The notes beneath the pieces are model-generated. The model searched no databases, was not told the DNA's origin, and saw nothing but the letters and a program-made list of their open reading frames with translations. The translations under genes and the position numbers were made by a program. A DNA stretch of 64,000 bases from Candidatus Marithrix sp. Canyon 246 (GTDB taxonomy: Bacteria > Pseudomonadota > Gammaproteobacteria > Beggiatoales > Beggiatoaceae), in assembly GCF_001723685.1 (NCBI RefSeq), contig NZ_MCBX01000001.1, positions 62,001-126,000 on the forward strand. Reading direction: 5' to 3'. Shown piece by piece: positions 13,436 through 22,772 of the stretch; the stretch's first letter is position 1; the number at the start of each line of letters is the position of its first letter.

Positions 13436-14269
13436 ATGAAACAAGTAGCACCATTACGTTATGATGTAATTTTTAAAAAGGCTTTTTCTGTGCCAGAAAT
13501 TTTTAATGCCTTTGTTCGTGATTTTTTAAATATAGAATTTGAGACTTTTACTGTAGAAACTGATAAAACTTATACGCCAACTATTGGTAATGTTGCAGCA
13601 AAATTTGATCTTTATGCCGAAGATAAAAAAAATCGTATAATTGTTGATATGCAGCATGTTCGTTATCCTGATCATTATCATAGATTTTTACATTATCATT
13701 GTGCAGCTTTATTAGAACAAACCGTGAAATCAAGAGATTATCGCCCTAAGTTAAAAGTCTTTACGCTAGTGATTTTAACTTCTGGTGATAAGCATAAAAA
13801 GGATATTTGTGTCATAGATTTTGATCCAAAGGATTTGCAAGGTAATTCTATTGGTGAAATTGATCATAAAATCATTTACATTTGTCCAAAATATCTCAAT
13901 AAAGAACTAACACCGAAAAAATATCATCAATGGATGGAAGCGATTGAAGATACATTAGATGAAGAAGTAGAAGAATCAAAATATACCCTGCCTGCAATTC
14001 AACGTATATTCAAAACAATAGAAAAAGATCAAGTTACTCCAGAAGAACGTGCCATAATGTTTGATGAATATGGAGAAGAACAAATTAAAAAACAAGGATT
14101 TAAAGACGGTTTAAAGGAAGGGATAGAAAAAGGTATTACTCAAAATATACATGACACAGTATTACGTATGCATAAAGAGGGATTAGAGATAAAAATTATT
14201 GCTAAAATTGCTGGAATAACCGAACAGGAAGTAGTTAAAATAAATGGCAATTATTATGACAGATATTGA
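13436..14269 (+). CDS. Rpn/PD-(D/E)XK-family nuclease (transposase-like)
   Basis: A 277-residue protein of the PDDEXK_2 family, related to Rpn recombination-promoting nucleases and often labelled transposase. The N-terminal domain begins PLRYDVIFKKAFSVPEIFNAF and contains a likely active site FDLYAED..RIIVDMQ, in which the usual Glu of the E-x-Q element is Asp. The C-terminus has GFKDGLKEGIEKGI and a helix-turn-helix-like end. These genes are common as scattered multicopy families in large genomes. Its last 26 nt overlap the start of the VWA gene in another frame, suggesting it has been placed upstream of it. Confidence 0.8.
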   Translation: MKQVAPLRYDVIFKKAFSVPEIFNAFVRDFLNIEFETFTVETDKTYTPTIGNVAAKFDLYAEDKKNRIIVDMQHVRYPDHYHRFLHYHCAALLEQTVKSRDYRPKLKVFTLVILTSGDKHKKDICVIDFDPKDLQGNSIGEIDHKIIYICPKYLNKELTPKKYHQWMEAIEDTLDEEVEESKYTLPAIQRIFKTIEKDQVTPEERAIMFDEYGEEQIKKQGFKDGLKEGIEKGITQNIHDTVLRMHKEGLEIKIIAKIAGITEQEVVKINGNYYDRY

Positions 14270-15464: not shown

Positions 15465-16727
15465 TTATTTAAAAACATCCAGAGTCAAATTATTATACCA
15501 GCCATAAGCATATTGAACATCCAATTTACGCTGTTCTGCGGTGGCATCTATACTAGATGTTCCGCCACTTCCGGGTACTTTTATTATGCTTTTACCATCT
15601 TCTGCTAATCGGTATATGGCTACAATTGATATTGCATAGTCTGTACCTACAATACTATAGCAACCATTACTAAATGATGGGCTTGTAATTGCCTGCCCAT
15701 TTAATAATGCCGCTATTGCAGTGGCACATGCTTTGGCTTCTGAATTTGCGGCAAAACCAGATTTTGGTAAGGGGCTAGCTGTACAAGCGTCGCCAATTAC
15801 ATGAATATCTTGATGTCGAGTTGATTCAAATGTTTGTACATCTACTGGACACCAACCACTATCATCAGTTAAGTCAGCAGCAAAGGCAATTGCACCAGCT
15901 TTTTGTGCTGGTATGATGTTCAAAACATCAGATTGATAACTATTGCCGCTGCTGGTAATTACTGTTCTATTATTGGCATCAACACTAGTGACTCCTTCGC
16001 CGCTTTGCCATTCAATCATATTTGGATATAAATCGCGCCAAGCTTGCATAAATAAATCTTGTTTCGCAAAGCTAGTTTTTGAATCTAAAATGATCACTTT
16101 AGAGCTTGGTTTATGTTGTTTCAAATAGTGAGCAATCAGACTCGCGCGTTCATAAGGAGCTGGTGGGCAACGATATGGATTAGGTGGTGCAGCTATTACC
16201 ACGGTGCCACCATCACTCATAGACTCTAACTGAGCGCGTAGAGTTAGTGTCTGTTCTCCAGCTTTCCAAGCATGAGGTATATTCTCAGCAACATTAGCGT
16301 CATAACCTTCTATAGTGTCATAACGAAAATCAATTCCCGGAGATACTACACAACGATCATAATTATAACTGCCACCATTCTTAGTAGTAACAGTATGAGT
16401 TACTGGATCAATAGCTATTACTTCATCTTCTACTACATTGACTCCATATACAGATTGCAAAGTATTATAATTAAAACGCAGAGATTCTAAATCGCGATCA
16501 CCACCTAACACCTCATTACTCATATAACAAGTCAGATATGAAGCATTTTTTTCAATTAAAGTAACTTCTATGCTCGAATCAGCGCGACGTAAATATTTAG
16601 CCACAGTTGCGCCACCAGTGCCGCCACCAACTATAACCACTTTCTTGCCAGCAGCTAATGCCATATTCGGCAAGCTGATTGTGCCAGCGGCTGCAACCAA
16701 TTTTAAAAATGTTCGACGTGTTGACAT
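15465..16727 (-). CDS. fccB: FccB-like flavoprotein (sulfide dehydrogenase type)
   Basis: This 420-residue flavoprotein starts with a Tat-type signal (STRRTFLKLVAAAG ... ALAA) and continues with an FAD-binding GGGTGGATVAKYL and the SYLTCYMSNEVLGG segment of flavocytochrome c sulfide dehydrogenases, whose Cys forms a covalent or redox link near FAD. The C-terminus carries the FCSD-flavin-binding type end. FccB oxidises sulfide in the periplasm and passes electrons to an FccA diheme cytochrome. Its start overlaps the DUF1552 stop by one base (TAATG). The FccA partner here is probably the middle of the large fused protein at 18003, two genes upstream. Confidence 0.85.
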   Translation of the reverse strand: MSTRRTFLKLVAAAGTISLPNMALAAGKKVVIVGGGTGGATVAKYLRRADSSIEVTLIEKNASYLTCYMSNEVLGGDRDLESLRFNYNTLQSVYGVNVVEDEVIAIDPVTHTVTTKNGGSYNYDRCVVSPGIDFRYDTIEGYDANVAENIPHAWKAGEQTLTLRAQLESMSDGGTVVIAAPPNPYRCPPAPYERASLIAHYLKQHKPSSKVIILDSKTSFAKQDLFMQAWRDLYPNMIEWQSGEGVTSVDANNRTVITSSGNSYQSDVLNIIPAQKAGAIAFAADLTDDSGWCPVDVQTFESTRHQDIHVIGDACTASPLPKSGFAANSEAKACATAIAALLNGQAITSPSFSNGCYSIVGTDYAISIVAIYRLAEDGKSIIKVPGSGGTSSIDATAEQRKLDVQYAYGWYNNLTLDVFK

Positions 16728-17992
16728 TATATTAAACCCCCTAATGATCCACTACCATTACTAGTATCTCCAAAACTATCAATAGACAAACCCATTAATT
16801 TCGCAATTGACACTAATAATTTACTATGACTTTCATCAGAATAACTCAAAGCACGCCCCCCAACTAAACCAGTTTTAGAGCCGCCTATCAAAACAAATGG
16901 CATATTATTATGACTATGATTATGAGAAATTTCAGACATATTGAAAATTAAGGTGTTATCCATTAAATTACCATTGCCTTCAGGAGTATTTGTTAAAGTA
17001 TCTATTAAAGATACTAACTGTTGGTTATACCAACTTTTCAATTTAATAAAACTGTCTGAATTGCCACCATCAGAATCATGTGAAGCATTGTGATTATCTC
17101 GTTGAGTTCCAGATTCTGGAATAATTATTTCTCCAGATACAGGATGACCAATTTTAATAGTTATAACACGAGTCATATCACAACTAAAGGCTTTAGCAGC
17201 TAAATCCATTTGTAATTGTAAAACTGTAGCAAAATTAGCTACATCTTTATAAGCACCATTATCAGGATTAAAGCCACCTTGATTAAAATCATCAACATCA
17301 CAACTGCCGCCGACACTATCACGCAGACGACGCTCAATATCACGCAAAGAACTGAGATGCATATCTACTTTCCTTTGTTCCAAAGTGCCAAGACGCTGAC
17401 TAATTTGATTAACTTCATCCAATACAAAGTCAATAATACTTAATTCACGCGCTACATCTCCGTCGGGATTTGGGCTAGTCATATTACCAAAAACTCGATT
17501 AAAAGCCGCTATTGGATTATCCTCTGATAAAATTTCGATTCCACCCGGGCTATAAGTAAGCATCGGTTTACTCCACTCATTACCACGAACACCTAAGTTT
17601 AAGTATGGAAATGCAGTCTCCATCTTAAAATATTGCCCTAAATAGTAATCGAGAGACACACGTCTTTGAGCATTTTCAGAACCAAAGCCAGTTAATACCT
17701 TAGCAGCACCACCTTCATGTGTTCCACCACCACCATACATTTTTAAACCAGTTAAAAACACACACTTATCACGAATTGCCTCAAAAGGAGCAGTCATTGC
17801 TGGCAAAGTAAAATTAGTATCAGAAGATCTATTTGGATGCCATAAACCATTAGTTGCCCCATCTGGAGTATAGAAAAAAATGATTCTTTTTGGTGACTCA
17901 GCCGCAATTGCTGGGCGAATAAAGGGCAATATACTGGCAGCTCCAAGCCCCTTTAGAAAATGACGGCGATTAATTAAAAACTTATTATTCAT
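16727..17992 (-). CDS. DUF1552 Tat-exported protein
   Basis: This 421-residue protein has a Tat signal (NRRHFLKGLGAASILPFIRPAIAA). The rest fits DUF1552, with FFYTPDGATNGLWHP, a GGTHEGGAAKVLTG segment and a late NHNASHDSDGGNS and NMSEISHNHSHN, His-rich regions that may bind metal. It resembles the alkaline-phosphatase-like DUF1501 family. DUF1552 genes normally sit beside DUF1592-type cytochrome genes, as here: the 1010-residue protein is encoded 10 nt upstream. Function is unproven, but genetic pairing implies that the two work together in the periplasm. Confidence 0.85.
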   Translation of the reverse strand: MNNKFLINRRHFLKGLGAASILPFIRPAIAAESPKRIIFFYTPDGATNGLWHPNRSSDTNFTLPAMTAPFEAIRDKCVFLTGLKMYGGGGTHEGGAAKVLTGFGSENAQRRVSLDYYLGQYFKMETAFPYLNLGVRGNEWSKPMLTYSPGGIEILSEDNPIAAFNRVFGNMTSPNPDGDVARELSIIDFVLDEVNQISQRLGTLEQRKVDMHLSSLRDIERRLRDSVGGSCDVDDFNQGGFNPDNGAYKDVANFATVLQLQMDLAAKAFSCDMTRVITIKIGHPVSGEIIIPESGTQRDNHNASHDSDGGNSDSFIKLKSWYNQQLVSLIDTLTNTPEGNGNLMDNTLIFNMSEISHNHSHNNMPFVLIGGSKTGLVGGRALSYSDESHSKLLVSIAKLMGLSIDSFGDTSNGSGSLGGLI

Positions 17993-18002
17993 CTGATTTT
18001 TC

Positions 18003-21000
18003 CTATTGGGCGCGTCTATGAGTAAAATGACGAGAATTTACAATATCTAAGAATAATGATTGTAAATCATAGTTCTGATCAGTATAGCGTTGATGCAATT
18101 CTTCTAAGGCACAATTTCCTTGTTTCTCTACAGAACCGCTAGCAAAACGATAATATTGTGTAGCTAGACATTTAGCAGCATTATCACTATTAGATAAGAT
18201 TTGTGACATTTCATTGAGATTATTAAAAGCTATAGGATTAGTAGGTTTATAATCTTCTATTCCCAATAAGTTACCTGTAGTATCAATAGTTTGACCATTT
18301 TCAGTAGTATGAAATTTGGAAGCTCCATCATAAGCACCAAAACCAAATCCCGGTTCATCAATATATTTATGACAAGAAGCACAGACTGGATCAGCAGTAT
18401 GTTGAGCAAAACGTTCGCGTGTGGTTTGATTTGGATTAGGAGCAGGCGGAGTACCATCAACATCTGGTCCGGGTAATGGAATATCTTGACACATGATACG
18501 TCCACGTAAAAATACCCCACGTTTAATCGGTGAAGAATCTACACTAGAAGCATAACGAGCTAATACGCTACCTAAAGTTAGTATGCCGAAGCGAGTGCCA
18601 TCATTTACAGGAACTACTTCAAAATCATTTCCAGCAGGAGCATTTAAATTATAGTAATCTGCTAATAAACGATTTATGATTACATAATCAGCAGTCAACA
18701 AATCTTTAAATTTACCATTAATATTAAATACTACATAATTAAAGAACTGTTTTAATTCCTCAGCCATAGCATCTTTAATTTCAGGAGTAAATTCTGGATA
18801 AATATTAGGATTTTTACTATCTAAAGATAAAGCGTCAATACCTAATAACCATTGTTCTGCAAAATGCCCTAAATGTTTACGACTACATTGATCAGCTAAC
18901 AAACGAGTGGCTTGATTAACAATATCTAAGTTACCATTATCAGCAGCGGCAAATAAAGTTTCATCTGGCATAGTACCACAAAACAGATAAGATAAACTAC
19001 TAGCTATTTCATAAGCAGTTAATTTATAAGTTTTATCAGCTTGTTCTACACCTAATTCAGAACGATATAAGAAATAAGGTGAAACTAACATAGTTGTCAA
19101 CATCAACTCAGCATTTTCTTCAAAAGTAGAACTACTACTAAATAATCCAGCATATTGATTAACCTCATTCTCAGTAAGAGGGCGACGATAAGCGCGTTTA
19201 CCAAGATAACGAATTAAATCTTCAGTACAATTGTCCGCATTACTACAAACAGCTAATAAATCACTATTATCTCTAATTGCTTGAGCAGTTAATTCTTTGG
19301 CTTTAGTTAAATAAGTATCCATGCGAGTATCGGTAATCAGATTTTGATCACTATTATTATCAAAACCAGCTACACGATTATCAATTGGTAATTCCGCAGC
19401 AATACTAGTATTTATACCTAATAAATCATTAACAGTATTTTGATACTCGTAACGAGTTAATAAGCGTAATCTTCTAGGTAAGGTAGGGATATTATTATCT
19501 TGACATTCAGCATTGCCACCAGAAAAAGTATTTAAAATATAATAACTAATACTTTCAGCACATTGACTATCACAAGCAGCAGGATTATCAAATGGCATAC
19601 TATTAGTAATGGTTGAAACTAAATAATCATAATCATCTTGACCAAATGTATTTAAAGCTTTACCAGAAGTACCACCTTGACCCTCAGTTCCATGACATTC
19701 TAAACATTTATGTTGAAAATATAATTCACTTCCCGGCGGAGTATCACTACCATCATCAAGATCATCATCATCCATATTAGCAGCATAATATGTAGCTAAA
19801 GCTGTAATAGAACTATTATCTAAACCCTCAAATTGTTTAGCCATATCAGCAGGAATATTACTACTACGCCCAGCTCGATAATCCATCATAGTAGCCTGTA
19901 AATATGTTTGCCATTGCCCAGCTAATATAGTTCCGGTAAGAGTTTTATTACGTCCACCTTCAGAATGACAATCTACACAACGATCTTTATGAATATGCCA
20001 ACCGCGTCTAACCACATTAATATCAAACTGTTGCTCCGCAGCAACAAAAGACTTTTTAGAAAAATGATCTGCTAATAAATTAATTTGATCCTCAGTATAA
20101 CCAGTAGCTATTAAACCCATCATATTTGAAGCCCGTGCATCAGTTTGATAGGCAGTGACGGTACGAATAAAATAATCTTTACCAAAACCAGTAATAGTAG
20201 GCATACTTGGTCCAGCACTAACTCCATCGGTGCCATGACAAATAGCACAGTTATTAGCTAAAGCGATTGCTGATGGAGGAGATAATGGAGGTGGACCAGC
20301 TTGTCCGCCACATCTGGAACCATTAACTTTGAGATCATTAGGCTTATTATTATTACCTTGATATGAAGCATTAAAACCAAATTTAATTTTTCCACCAGTA
20401 GGAATAATTTTATTCCAATCTAAATTTTTGACAGAAACACTATCAGCATTTTGATTAAGACTACCATTCCAAAGATTAGTAATTTGTTGAGCATCAGGCA
20501 TGGTCCAAGTAACATCCCAGCCATTCAGAGACGTACCAGTATTTTCAATTTCAATTCTAGCAGTAAAACCAGTATTCCATTGATCACTAATATTATAATC
20601 GACTATACAGCTAGTATTGGTAGGAGGAGGTGGAGGAGGAGCGACTTGACCATCACAAACAACACCATTAACAGTAATATCGGCAGGGATGTCATTAGTA
20701 CCTTGATGCGAAGCATTAAAACCAAAGTCAAGTACAGAGCCAGTTGCAATATTCTTATTCCAATCATAATGTCTAACTTCAACACTATCACCTTGCTGAG
20801 TATGCTGACCCTTCCATAAACCAGTAATAGTTTGTCCATTCAGCATATTCCAACGAACAAGCCAACCATCTAAATTATCACCTAAATTAGTGATTTTAAC
20901 TTCAGCAGTAAAACCATTATTCCATTGATTAAGGATTTTATAATCAACAGTACAAGAGACTTCAGCAAAAACGGTCTTATGCCATAATAAGATAAAGATG

Positions 21001-21035
21001 CCTAAATATAGAAAAACTCTATGTGGTCGTTTCAT
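18003..21035 (-). CDS. CBM2-FccA-like-cytochrome-DUF1592 fusion protein
   Basis: This 1010-residue secreted protein has a signal peptide (1-24), then two family-2 cellulose-binding modules (about 27-127 and 142-243), each with the expected surface Trp residues and joined by a Pro-rich linker. Residues about 255-420 match FccA, the diheme subunit of flavocytochrome c, with haem sites CAICH (263) and CVDCH (353) and LAGQWQTYLQ. A third haem site, CLECH (444), follows. The remainder is the DUF1587-DUF1595-DUF1592-DUF1588-DUF1585 series (about 519-1005), with a fourth CASCH (885). The downstream FccB-like gene supplies a likely electron partner. The fusion to binding modules is unusual. A ribosome-binding site AAAGGAT precedes the start. 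Confidence 0.88.
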   Translation of the reverse strand: MKRPHRVFLYLGIFILLWHKTVFAEVSCTVDYKILNQWNNGFTAEVKITNLGDNLDGWLVRWNMLNGQTITGLWKGQHTQQGDSVEVRHYDWNKNIATGSVLDFGFNASHQGTNDIPADITVNGVVCDGQVAPPPPPPTNTSCIVDYNISDQWNTGFTARIEIENTGTSLNGWDVTWTMPDAQQITNLWNGSLNQNADSVSVKNLDWNKIIPTGGKIKFGFNASYQGNNNKPNDLKVNGSRCGGQAGPPPLSPPSAIALANNCAICHGTDGVSAGPSMPTITGFGKDYFIRTVTAYQTDARASNMMGLIATGYTEDQINLLADHFSKKSFVAAEQQFDINVVRRGWHIHKDRCVDCHSEGGRNKTLTGTILAGQWQTYLQATMMDYRAGRSSNIPADMAKQFEGLDNSSITALATYYAANMDDDDLDDGSDTPPGSELYFQHKCLECHGTEGQGGTSGKALNTFGQDDYDYLVSTITNSMPFDNPAACDSQCAESISYYILNTFSGGNAECQDNNIPTLPRRLRLLTRYEYQNTVNDLLGINTSIAAELPIDNRVAGFDNNSDQNLITDTRMDTYLTKAKELTAQAIRDNSDLLAVCSNADNCTEDLIRYLGKRAYRRPLTENEVNQYAGLFSSSSTFEENAELMLTTMLVSPYFLYRSELGVEQADKTYKLTAYEIASSLSYLFCGTMPDETLFAAADNGNLDIVNQATRLLADQCSRKHLGHFAEQWLLGIDALSLDSKNPNIYPEFTPEIKDAMAEELKQFFNYVVFNINGKFKDLLTADYVIINRLLADYYNLNAPAGNDFEVVPVNDGTRFGILTLGSVLARYASSVDSSPIKRGVFLRGRIMCQDIPLPGPDVDGTPPAPNPNQTTRERFAQHTADPVCASCHKYIDEPGFGFGAYDGASKFHTTENGQTIDTTGNLLGIEDYKPTNPIAFNNLNEMSQILSNSDNAAKCLATQYYRFASGSVEKQGNCALEELHQRYTDQNYDLQSLFLDIVNSRHFTHRRAQ

Positions 21036-21194: not shown

Positions 21195-22520
21195 ATGTTT
21201 ATAAGTGCTTTAGAGCTATTTAAAATAGGAATTGGTCCCTCAAGTTCTCATACTATGGGTCCCATGGTTGCTGCAAAGGATTTTATTGATCGTATTTGTA
21301 ACTCTAATTTAAAGGGTTCTATACGGTGTATTTTGAAAGGTTCTTTGGCTTTTACTGGTAAGGGTCATAATACTGATCGCGCTGTGGTTTTGGGGCTTTA
21401 TGGTTATTCTCCTGAGAGTTTGATTGATCAGAATATAGATGCTTTGCTTGAGCGTCTTTTGCAAAATAATTTTTTAGATGATAATCATACTATTATTTTT
21501 GATTTCGGTGAGCCTTTGCCGGAACATCCTAATGGTATGATCTTAGAATTGCTTGATCAATCTGGAAAAGTTTTGATGTCAGAAACTTATTTTTCTATTG
21601 GTGGTGGTTTTATTACTACGCTTGCTGAAATAAGTCAGGTGGTTGCACCATTGAAGATGGAGTCTGATATTTCTTGTCCATATTCATTTGAATCTGCAAG
21701 TTCTATGTTGCAAATGTCTGTTGATAATGGATTATCCATTGCAGAGATGAAGCGAATAAATGAACTTGAGTATTTGTCTGAGCAGGAATTGAATGATGGA
21801 TTGGATAAAATATGGCAAAGTATGCGGACTTGTGTTGAAAAGGGTTTGATGGCTGAAGGTTCTCTGCCCGGAGGGCTTGAAGTGTCAAGACGTGCCAAAA
21901 CTTTATACGATCAACTTGATTCTGAAAATGCTAATCTTAATGATTGGTTGTGTGCTTATGCTATGGCAGTGAATGAAGAAAATGCAGCTGGGCATATGGT
22001 GGTAACAGCACCTACTAATGGTGCGGCTGGAGTGATTCCTGCTGTTTTATATTATTTTATTACTCATGAATCGGGAACTATAGAACAGATTAGAACTTTT
22101 CTGCTTACTGCTAGTGCTATCGGTGGATTAATAAAATATCGCAGCTCAATTTCTGGAGCTGAAGTAGGATGTCAAGGTGAAGTTGGTTCTGCTGCTTCTA
22201 TGGCTGCCGCTGGTTTGTGTGCAGTTAGGGGAGGTTCTGCTTTACAAGTAGAAAATGCAGCAGAAATTGCTCTTGAACATCATCTAGGTATGACTTGTGA
22301 TCCAGTAAAGGGATTGGTACAAGTTCCATGTATTGAGCGAAATGGTTTTGGTGCTATCAAGGCTTACACTGCTGCATCTCTGGCAATGCGAGGAAATGGG
22401 CAACATTTTATGCCTTTAGATAATTGCATTGCTGCTATGAAACAAACTGGTTTGGATATGTCAGAGAAATATAAAGAAACATCTTTGGGTGGACTTGCGG
22501 TTAGCATTACTGAGTGTTAA
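21195..22520 (+). CDS. sdaA: L-serine ammonia-lyase
   Basis: The enzyme converts L-serine to pyruvate and ammonia. The 441-residue single-chain protein begins with [16 protein letters not shown] (SSSH phosphate-loop signature) and carries the iron-sulfur and catalytic C-terminal half, with [17 protein letters not shown] and [19 protein letters not shown]. The Cys residues there bind the [4Fe-4S] cluster. It is monocistronic by position, with its own divergent upstream region. Its codon choice (many GCT and TTG codons) looks slightly different from its neighbours, which I could not quantify. Confidence 0.95.
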
Positions 22521-22525
22521 GAAAA

Positions 22526-22772
22526 ATTATCTAAACCCTCAAATTGTAAAGCCATATCAGCAGGAATATTACGACTACGCCCAGCTAATATAGTTCCGGT
22601 AAGAGTTTTATTACGTCCACCTTCAGAATGACAATTTACACAACGATCTTTATGAATATGCCAACCACGTTTCACAACATTAATATCAAACTGTTGTTCA
22701 GCGGCAACACTTTTTAGAAAAATGATCTGCTAATAAATTAATTTGATCCTCAGTATAACCAGTAGCTATTAA
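22526..22772 (-). pseudogene. Decayed copy of part of the 1010-residue cytochrome gene
   Basis: This 247-nt stretch is a near-copy of 19815-20114, the second FccA-like haem region of the large fused gene, in the same orientation. The copy lacks 48 nt between two GCCCAGCT repeats that bound the deleted part in the original, and 5 nt near a GCAAC tract. The haem motif reads CVNCH instead of CVDCH. No start or full frame remains. It is therefore a fragment left by segmental duplication. Confidence 0.88.

Follow-up and report, generated by a model that had tools for sequence, protein, structure and literature searches.

The stretch of Candidatus Marithrix sp. Canyon 246 DNA analysed here (contig NZ_MCBX01000001.1, positions 62,001 to 126,000; the whole 64,000 nucleotides are called the window and numbered from its first letter) carries on its minus strand an operon of three genes. 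The first encodes a 1010-residue protein in which two carbohydrate-binding modules of family CBM2 are fused to a domain resembling FccA, the dihaem subunit of flavocytochrome c (FCC), and to further haem-bearing regions, and the last encodes a flavoprotein resembling FccB, the other subunit of that enzyme. The fusion, its recurrence in other genomes and its partner are well supported. With moderate confidence, it is proposed that the operon encodes a secreted flavocytochrome c (sulfide dehydrogenase) that is tethered to a glycan and feeds electrons into a haem core. The genes, and the domains of the first product, are as follows.

18003..21035, minus strand: whole gene for the CBM2-CBM2-FccA-monohaem-DUF1587..1585 tetrahaem protein, 1010 amino acids (open reading frame, Pfam, structure-sequence matches)
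20964..21035, minus strand: Sec-type signal peptide, residues 1-24 (by eye)
20652..20963, minus strand: first CBM2, residues 25-128, with each of the three surface Trp positions retained
20310..20609, minus strand: second CBM2, residues 143-242, likewise with the three surface Trp positions retained
19776..20270, minus strand: FccA-like dihaem domain, residues 256-420, with CxxCH at 263 and 353 and Met306 and Met398 as probable distal ligands
19518..19745, minus strand: X183-like monohaem cytochrome domain, residues 431-506, with CxxCH at 444 and Met-x7-Cys-x3-Cys; structure model of low confidence
18024..19466, minus strand: DUF1587-DUF1595-DUF1592-DUF1588-DUF1585 region, residues 524-1004, with CxxCH at 885 (Pfam; read as 'X132')
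16727..17992, minus strand: DUF1552 (HXXSHH) protein, 421 amino acids, with a twin-arginine translocation (Tat)-type N-terminus by eye and a predicted alkaline-phosphatase-superfamily fold
15465..16727, minus strand: FccB-like flavoprotein, 420 amino acids, with a Tat-type N-terminus by eye and Cys67, Cys187, Cys356 and Trp410 present

A preliminary description had reported these three open reading frames, the order of two CBM2 modules, an FccA-like dihaem domain, a further haem domain and a DUF1587-DUF1585 tail with a fourth CxxCH, and the DUF1552 and FccB-like Tat proteins downstream in the same operon. All three frames were recovered at exactly the positions it gave, and the domain order and downstream genes are confirmed by Pfam, by the CxxCH positions (residues 263, 353, 444 and 885), by structure-sequence matches and, for the Tat-type N-terminus, by eye. 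The Pfam search of the large protein returned CBM_2 in two stretches (E = 1.9e-58), cytochrome c domains and, all above their cut-offs, PSD3/DUF1587, PSD5/DUF1595, PSD4/DUF1592, PSCyt3/DUF1588 and PSD2/DUF1585. The first two genes are 10 bp apart and the second and third overlap by a single base; the DUF1552 gene thus separates the gene bearing the FccA domain from that for FccB.

The fused FccA domain and the FccB-like protein

Residues 254-419 match FccA of flavocytochrome c in sequence (1fcd_C, E = 1.6e-25; 3vrd_A, E = 3.4e-25). The structural match to FccA on which the preliminary description had staked residues 255-420 was also found: the predicted fold of the domain superimposes on 3vrd_A with a Z score of 22.1 and a root-mean-square deviation (rmsd) of 1.7 A over 167 residues, ahead of cytochromes c4 and the TsdB part of TsdBA, and Foldseek gives E = 1.6e-10 with a TM-score by target of 0.86. 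Both CxxCH motifs are conserved in all nine fused FccA domains, as are Met306 and Met398, which would supply the distal haem ligands.

The last gene of the operon is equally recognizable, with Pfam matches to FCSD_central (E = 1e-49) and FCSD-flav_bind (E = 1.6e-22) and a match to 3vrd_B at E = 2.3e-144. Its Cys67, Cys187, Cys356 and Trp410 align with Cys42, Cys161, Cys337 and Trp391 of 1fcd_A, and these four residues are present in all eight operon copies and in the ordinary copies, except the long-branched L063, which is without Cys67 and Trp410. The assignment among them of the cysteine that links flavin adenine dinucleotide (FAD) and of the redox pair is one that we presume. Flavocytochrome c attaches its FAD by a cysteine thioether and also relies on a redox pair of cysteines (PMC12010331). 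The FccB of the operon is likely to oxidise sulfide.

Recurrence, co-occurrence and genomic surroundings

Relatives were sought at the level of the order (42 genomes, E 1e-30), the class (369 genomes, E 1e-50, two candidates scored per genome) and the phylum (398 genomes, E 1e-20, at most nine candidates scored per genome), and by a scan of 84,980 species genomes with two short peptide patterns. Within the order 11 genomes match, the two Marithrix over the whole length and the remaining nine over the FccA part only. Four match within the class, namely the window's own, Candidatus Thiobius (G181) and an uncultured Thiothrix (G114), both with the fusion, and G183, which has the core only. An FccA-like match was found in 84 of the genomes of the phylum, where the window's own frame measures 1015 amino acids and the next longest 458, 444, 436, 427 and 415, and FccA is therefore nearly always free. 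The species scan yielded 25 loci. Seven have an FccA domain (Marithrix, Ca. Thiobius, uncultured Thiothrix, T. caldifontis, a Thiotrichaceae metagenome-assembled genome (MAG), a Chromatiales MAG and Thiohalocapsa), and we take all seven hosts, by their names, to be sulfur bacteria; the other 18 (five methanotroph, two of them in one MAG, one Pseudomonadales and twelve planctomycete) are without it. The three-gene set is thus present, besides the window, in a second Ca. Marithrix and in six further sulfur-bacterial genomes, which answers the suggestion of the preliminary description that the same domain order be sought elsewhere. The relatives of the large protein have frames of up to 1412 amino acids, and FN3 domains occur among them; one copy (L040) ends at a contig edge with its CBM2 modules not in place, and a 529-residue frame on another contig, which bears three CBM2, may supply what is missing. 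Among named organisms the closest is Candidatus Marithrix sp. BB16 (L035), with 94% identity over the part from FccA to the end.

The pairing of the FccA domain with FccB was scored in 22 loci, the window being additional, each of which has a gene for a DUF1592-type protein, one for DUF1552 and 1.5 kb or more of sequence past the latter; a planctomycete locus counted once even where it has several paralogues, and L044, with no more than 1.1 kb following DUF1552, was left out along with L049 and L059 (no DUF1552 in the available sequence). FccB is present in all seven loci with an FccA domain and in none of the 15 without it (Fisher p = 6e-6, with no correction for kinship), and the window is an eighth locus with both. 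Four methanotroph rows that lack the FccA domain nest within the FccA-positive clade (support 100/99; their own branch 97/96), and the three with enough flank have no adjoining FccB, as searched at the locus. This pattern could reflect loss of both the FccA domain and FccB or gain of both elsewhere. The fused FccA domains group in a single clade (100/100) that excludes 13 stand-alone FccA sequences, in a tree that omits hits below 100 bits, including the monohaem partners of G114; the FccB tree omits the truncated L069.

The window's genome has two ordinary, stand-alone fccA genes, each immediately followed by an fccB and lying beside soxYZ-like genes (L024:7515-14680; Sox names by eye), and a published Marithrix genome is described with sqr and an fccAB operon (PMC4971068). 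Their existence raises the alternative that the operon's FccB pairs with a stand-alone FccA and that the fused domain is a mere electron wire. We consider this very unlikely, since each stand-alone fccA is adjoined by an fccB of its own and since the fused domain and FccB occur together or not at all. The uncultured Thiothrix G114, moreover, has no stand-alone dihaem FccA above 26% identity to the fused domain, its best other match, monohaem frames aside, being a 26% cytochrome, so that the operon FccB there has no findable ordinary dihaem partner. The preliminary description had named a separate fccA pairing with this FccB as the finding that would count against it; none of the stand-alone genes appears to be such a partner. 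Its central claim, namely that a domain within a larger, exported and carbohydrate-binding protein fills the role of FccA with the downstream FccB as its partner, gains support in the comparisons made here from the structural match, the conserved residues, the co-occurrence across 22 loci, the absence of both from the methanotroph loci, the fused clade and a weak split among the FccB sequences, and pairing of the two in trans is strongly supported by comparison.

The ordinary pairs bear in another way on what the operon FccB may oxidise. It shares 53% identity with the genome's ordinary copies, and sulfide is already covered by those two pairs; the flavoprotein might instead act on another sulfur compound, such as polysulfide, persulfide or thiols, or serve in the reductive direction as a sulfur reductase, the remainder of the model being unchanged. 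Such a role appears rather improbable given that the redox cysteine pair, the FAD-linking cysteine and the C-terminal Trp, in roles that we partly presume, are all kept, and that the hosts in which the FccAB form was found are all sulfur bacteria by name. The doubt voiced in the preliminary description as to whether the substrate is sulfide is weakened by this distribution, judged as it is by organism name, and is not removed.

Several further observations concern FccB and its cytochromes. A multihaem frame with eight CxxCH lies between the two ordinary fccAB pairs (L024, 9881-11293), a 40-residue FccB-like match occurs at G000:C42:86033-86152, and in G114 two further FccB genes (L062, L063) adjoin short monohaem cytochromes, perhaps as in 5n1t.

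In the second Ca. Marithrix (G026) the three genes stand in identical order in dissimilar surroundings, which there include sat-, clpX- and murJ-like genes among others (names by eye), and the first gene shows 93% identity along its entire length; the fusion and gene order are therefore not a matter of chance. Ratios of nonsynonymous to synonymous substitution rates (dN/dS) between the two are 0.19 for the large protein, 0.10 for DUF1552 and 0.155 for FccB, and range from 0.15 to 0.23 across the five domains of the large protein, values low enough in every gene and domain to show that all parts are kept. Upstream of the operon in the window, at 22520..22772 and in the same (minus) orientation, part of the sequence that encodes the FccA domain is present a second time, degraded and rearranged, in two pieces (93.5% and 92.5% nucleotide identity). 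This copy starts where a serine dehydratase gene divergent from the operon (21195-22520) ends and suggests that a portion of the first gene was once duplicated. A PD-(D/E)XK transposase-family (PF12784) gene near the operon, at 13436-14269, is a possible agent of local rearrangement.

The haem core, the bound glycan and a proposed electron path

The domain that follows FccA (residues 431-506) matches 8q1v at E = 3.3e-12, a solved cytochrome deposited as 'putative lipoprotein' that we take to be a Teredinibacter X183, and more weakly the X183 domain of Cbp2D (7b21, E = 0.039). A Met and two Cys residues, at spacings of +8 and +4, are invariant in four operon copies and are spaced as Met66, Cys74 and Cys78 of CjX183. 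The DUF1587-1585 region beyond it probably corresponds to the X132 of the CAZy literature, a reading based on two figure legends rather than on alignment to any X132 sequence; of the legends tied to X132, one gives DUF1587 (PMC8981238) and the other prints DUF1687 (PMC10916295). DUF1800 aligns weakly, below its cut-off, with the C-terminal part of the large protein.

The DUF1552 protein is assigned by Pfam (HXXSHH, E = 9e-60), and its predicted model, with a mean predicted local distance difference test score (pLDDT) of 70.4, adopts an alkaline-phosphatase-superfamily fold, closest to nucleotide pyrophosphatases (best Z 17.7, rmsd 3.2 A, 242 residues), with sulfatases and the phosphoethanolamine transferase MCR-1 close behind; the best Foldseek match has E = 2.6e-5 and a TM-score of about 0.4. 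A hydrolase- or transferase-like, glycan-directed role is thinkable from this model, a shared fold showing no function in itself.

It is likely that the assembly is tethered to a glycan. The three surface Trp positions of CBM2a, numbered after Cex, are occupied by Trp in 26, 27 and 23 of 29 modules, namely 27 from nine operon proteins (those of methanotrophs included) and the window's two, with the three CBM2 of L049 omitted. The bound glycan was approached by a survey of eight sulfur-bacterial and three methanotroph genomes. No other CBM2 protein was found in six of the eight, the window's included, and G408 and G411 have others. No AA10 lytic polysaccharide monooxygenase (LPMO) was found in the sulfur bacteria, and one was found among the methanotrophs (one of 11 genomes in all). 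GH5 was found in four of the eight and in neither Marithrix, and a cellulose-feeding lifestyle was accordingly rejected as a common trait. With no AA10, no GH5 in either Marithrix and CBM2 only in this protein, attack on food cellulose is unlikely for Marithrix. Among possible target polymers is the glucosaminoglucan of the Thiothrix sheath. For export, the type II secretin GspD scores above its cut-off in all 11 genomes. For Marithrix itself, a possible polysaccharide sheath and holdfast have been mentioned (PMC4971068).

The same survey bears on the suggestion, made in the preliminary description, of a redox function serving LPMOs. Electrons would then be supplied to LPMOs during cellulose breakdown, as proposed for Cbp2D, whose X183 reduces LPMOs in vitro (PMC8981238) and whose core is similar to the one found here. 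The lack of AA10 in the eight sulfur-bacterial genomes, which may be incomplete, together with that of other CBM2 proteins in six of them and of GH5 in both Marithrix, the enzyme search having covered AA10 and GH5, makes this highly improbable, and it is not favoured.

The direction of electron flow is suggested by the relative in G183 (L034:6118-14157), a 2232-residue protein with four CBM26 (starch-binding) modules, a GSDH sugar dehydrogenase, haem domains and an X183-X132-like core; a DUF1552 gene is present at this locus, and no FccB in the locus as read. Because another dehydrogenase there occupies the place of FccA on the same core, electrons would be expected to run inward from it. In the glycan-tethered sulfide dehydrogenase proposed here, FccB, with its FAD and redox cysteine pair, would oxidise sulfide and dock in trans on the FccA-like dihaem domain of the large protein, from which electrons would pass to the X183-like haem and on to the haem of the DUF1592-type region within the same chain. 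That region would work with the DUF1552 protein; for this end of the system, our preferred guess is that it cross-links the bound glycan or modifies it by redox chemistry. The two CBM2a-type modules would fix the assembly to a beta-1,4-linked glycan that most probably belongs to the cell's own surroundings (sheath, holdfast or matrix) and is not food, because this is the only CBM2 protein in six of the eight sulfur-bacterial hosts and none of them has an AA10 LPMO. Export would be by Sec and Tat and then by type II secretion, presumably through a GspD-type secretin. The complex, the turnover of sulfide, the glycan target and the electron acceptor are what we infer from these data.

A number of results weigh against this proposal. 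The window's genome, with its two ordinary fccAB pairs, has no need of the operon for sulfide oxidation. Cytochromes c4 and the TsdB part of TsdBA stand close behind FccA in the fold list (Z 18-19 vs 22), and the best NCBIfam model for the FccA stretch, PdsA, reaches 91.6 bits, well short of the 330 needed to pass its cut-off and similar to the 92.5 bits of 1fcd_C. The joint presence of the FccA domain and FccB requires about two changes on the X132 tree, the 22 loci not being independent, and the split of operon FccB from ordinary FccB is weak (67/74; 86/93 for the 12 ordinary sequences excluding the long-branched L063). The structure model has pLDDT below 50 over nearly all of residues 430-510; the fold of the X183-like domain is not confirmed there, and the model therefore does not show how FccA connects to the last haem. 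BcsB was found in none of the 11 genomes, with a control search positive in E. coli; the cell's own bacterial cellulose was rejected as the CBM2 target, and cellulose of that type does not explain these modules. The GspD of the window's genome passes only narrowly (356.3 vs 351.35 bits). For the X183/X132 proteins of Teredinibacter turnerae, the authors describe results inconsistent with electron donation to LPMOs, and they found no activity for the domains that were assayed (PMC10916295).

The fusion might also be a matter of shared location. An ordinary sulfide dehydrogenase would then pass its electrons to the usual respiratory cytochromes and be joined to an unrelated glycan-active DUF1592/DUF1552 enzyme for the sake of a common cell-surface site. 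The modelled fold of DUF1552, of phosphatase or sulfatase type and not redox, would suit such a scaffold, as would the lack of confidence with which the model places the X183-like domain between FccA and the remainder and the cbb3-type oxidase reported in Ca. Marithrix (PMC4971068). Yet the domain that links FccA to the DUF1592 region is itself haem-bearing, and the GSDH of G183 on the same chain as the core fits electron feed better than co-location; on balance the scaffold appears unlikely.

Comparison with known systems

The flavocytochromes c of known structure (1fcd, 3vrd, 5n1t) share with the operon the key residues of FccB and a dihaem FccA fold with two CxxCH. FccA is normally a separate chain, of 174 residues in 1fcd and 3vrd, whereas here it is a domain of a predicted glycan-binding tetrahaem protein of 1010 amino acids, with no separate fccA gene next to the operon fccB. 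If the proposal of a tethered sulfide dehydrogenase is true, flavocytochrome c could be exported and bound to a glycan and need not be a free periplasmic enzyme.

Cbp2D of Cellvibrio japonicus carries CBM2, X158 and FN3, with X183 and X132 at its C-terminus (PMC8981238, PMC12542752); it is important for growth on insoluble cellulose, its exact role being open (PMC12542752). The comparison is by description, its X183 (7b21) being the weak match noted above. The window protein likewise has CBM2, a monohaem domain with the Met/Cys/Cys spacing of CjX183 and a DUF1587-led region with one CxxCH, and FN3 occurs in its operon relatives. It differs in its dihaem FccA domain, in lacking any X158 (YceI-like) match in Pfam up to E = 1, and in the DUF1552 and FccB genes that follow; its FccAB-form hosts, moreover, are without AA10 LPMOs. 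In Teredinibacter turnerae, X132 domains again occur on large secreted proteins, of which TERTU_2913 has three X183, and TERTU_3803 carries CBM10, CBM2 and a domain pair predicted as a pyrroloquinoline quinone (PQQ)-dependent dehydrogenase (PMC10916295). X132 and X183-type domains on large secreted proteins are thus common to these and to the window protein, but the architectures described there are without an FccA domain, and the word 'flavocytochrome' does not occur in the main text of that paper.

Planctomycete PSCyt/PSD proteins resemble the operon in the pairing of a DUF1587-1585-type region with a DUF1552 gene, and some PSCyt proteins bear carbohydrate-binding domains, as noted in Verrucomicrobia (PMC5615132), but neither the FccA domain nor FccB was found in the 11 planctomycete loci scored. 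A Cellvibrio protein listed as 'CBM2, DUF1592' appears in a metasecretome table (PMC6004670). Genes of the DUF1501/DUF1800 type, some co-transferred with bacterial chitin synthases, offer a further parallel, although no CBM2 or FccA domain is described with them in the portion of that paper available to us (PMC5122149). In Ca. Thiobius a second FccA fusion (L060:2597-14856) consists of a 3220-residue protein followed by DUF1501 and FccB genes, with DUF1501 in the place of DUF1552. The protein has seven PA14 stretches, FN3, a haem domain, an FccA domain that falls in the fused clade and, after it, a region of weak, below-cut-off similarity to DUF1592/DUF1588. Another possible carbohydrate-binding module and the sister family DUF1501 thus accompany FccAB. 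In the literature searched, DUF1592 and DUF1552 each turned up singly in two papers and together in none, nor was the FCSD phrase found alongside CBM terms.

From their architectures, these systems would share one core with exchangeable binding modules and exchangeable donors. A broader reading, which we offer as tentative and hold to be less probable than not, is that X183-like, DUF1587-1585 and DUF1552 components form a general glycan-anchored redox engine into which different donors are plugged, X158 in Cbp2D, GSDH in G183 and FccAB in the sulfur bacteria, with a parallel PA14/DUF1501 version, and that sulfide in the sulfur bacteria is the fuel for oxidative or reductive modification of extracellular polysaccharide. 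Were this true, it would tie lithotrophy to the chemistry of the matrix, a link not found in the literature searched. For the cores of Cbp2D type and of PSCyt/DUF1552 type, the donor and acceptor of the haems are open, service to LPMOs being the leading idea for Cbp2D. Here a similar core is joined to FccAB, whose chemistry is known, in hosts where the search for AA10 LPMOs found none, and the system thereby offers a defined candidate donor, sulfide, with which the direction of electron flow and the role of the DUF1592/DUF1552 pair can be tested directly.

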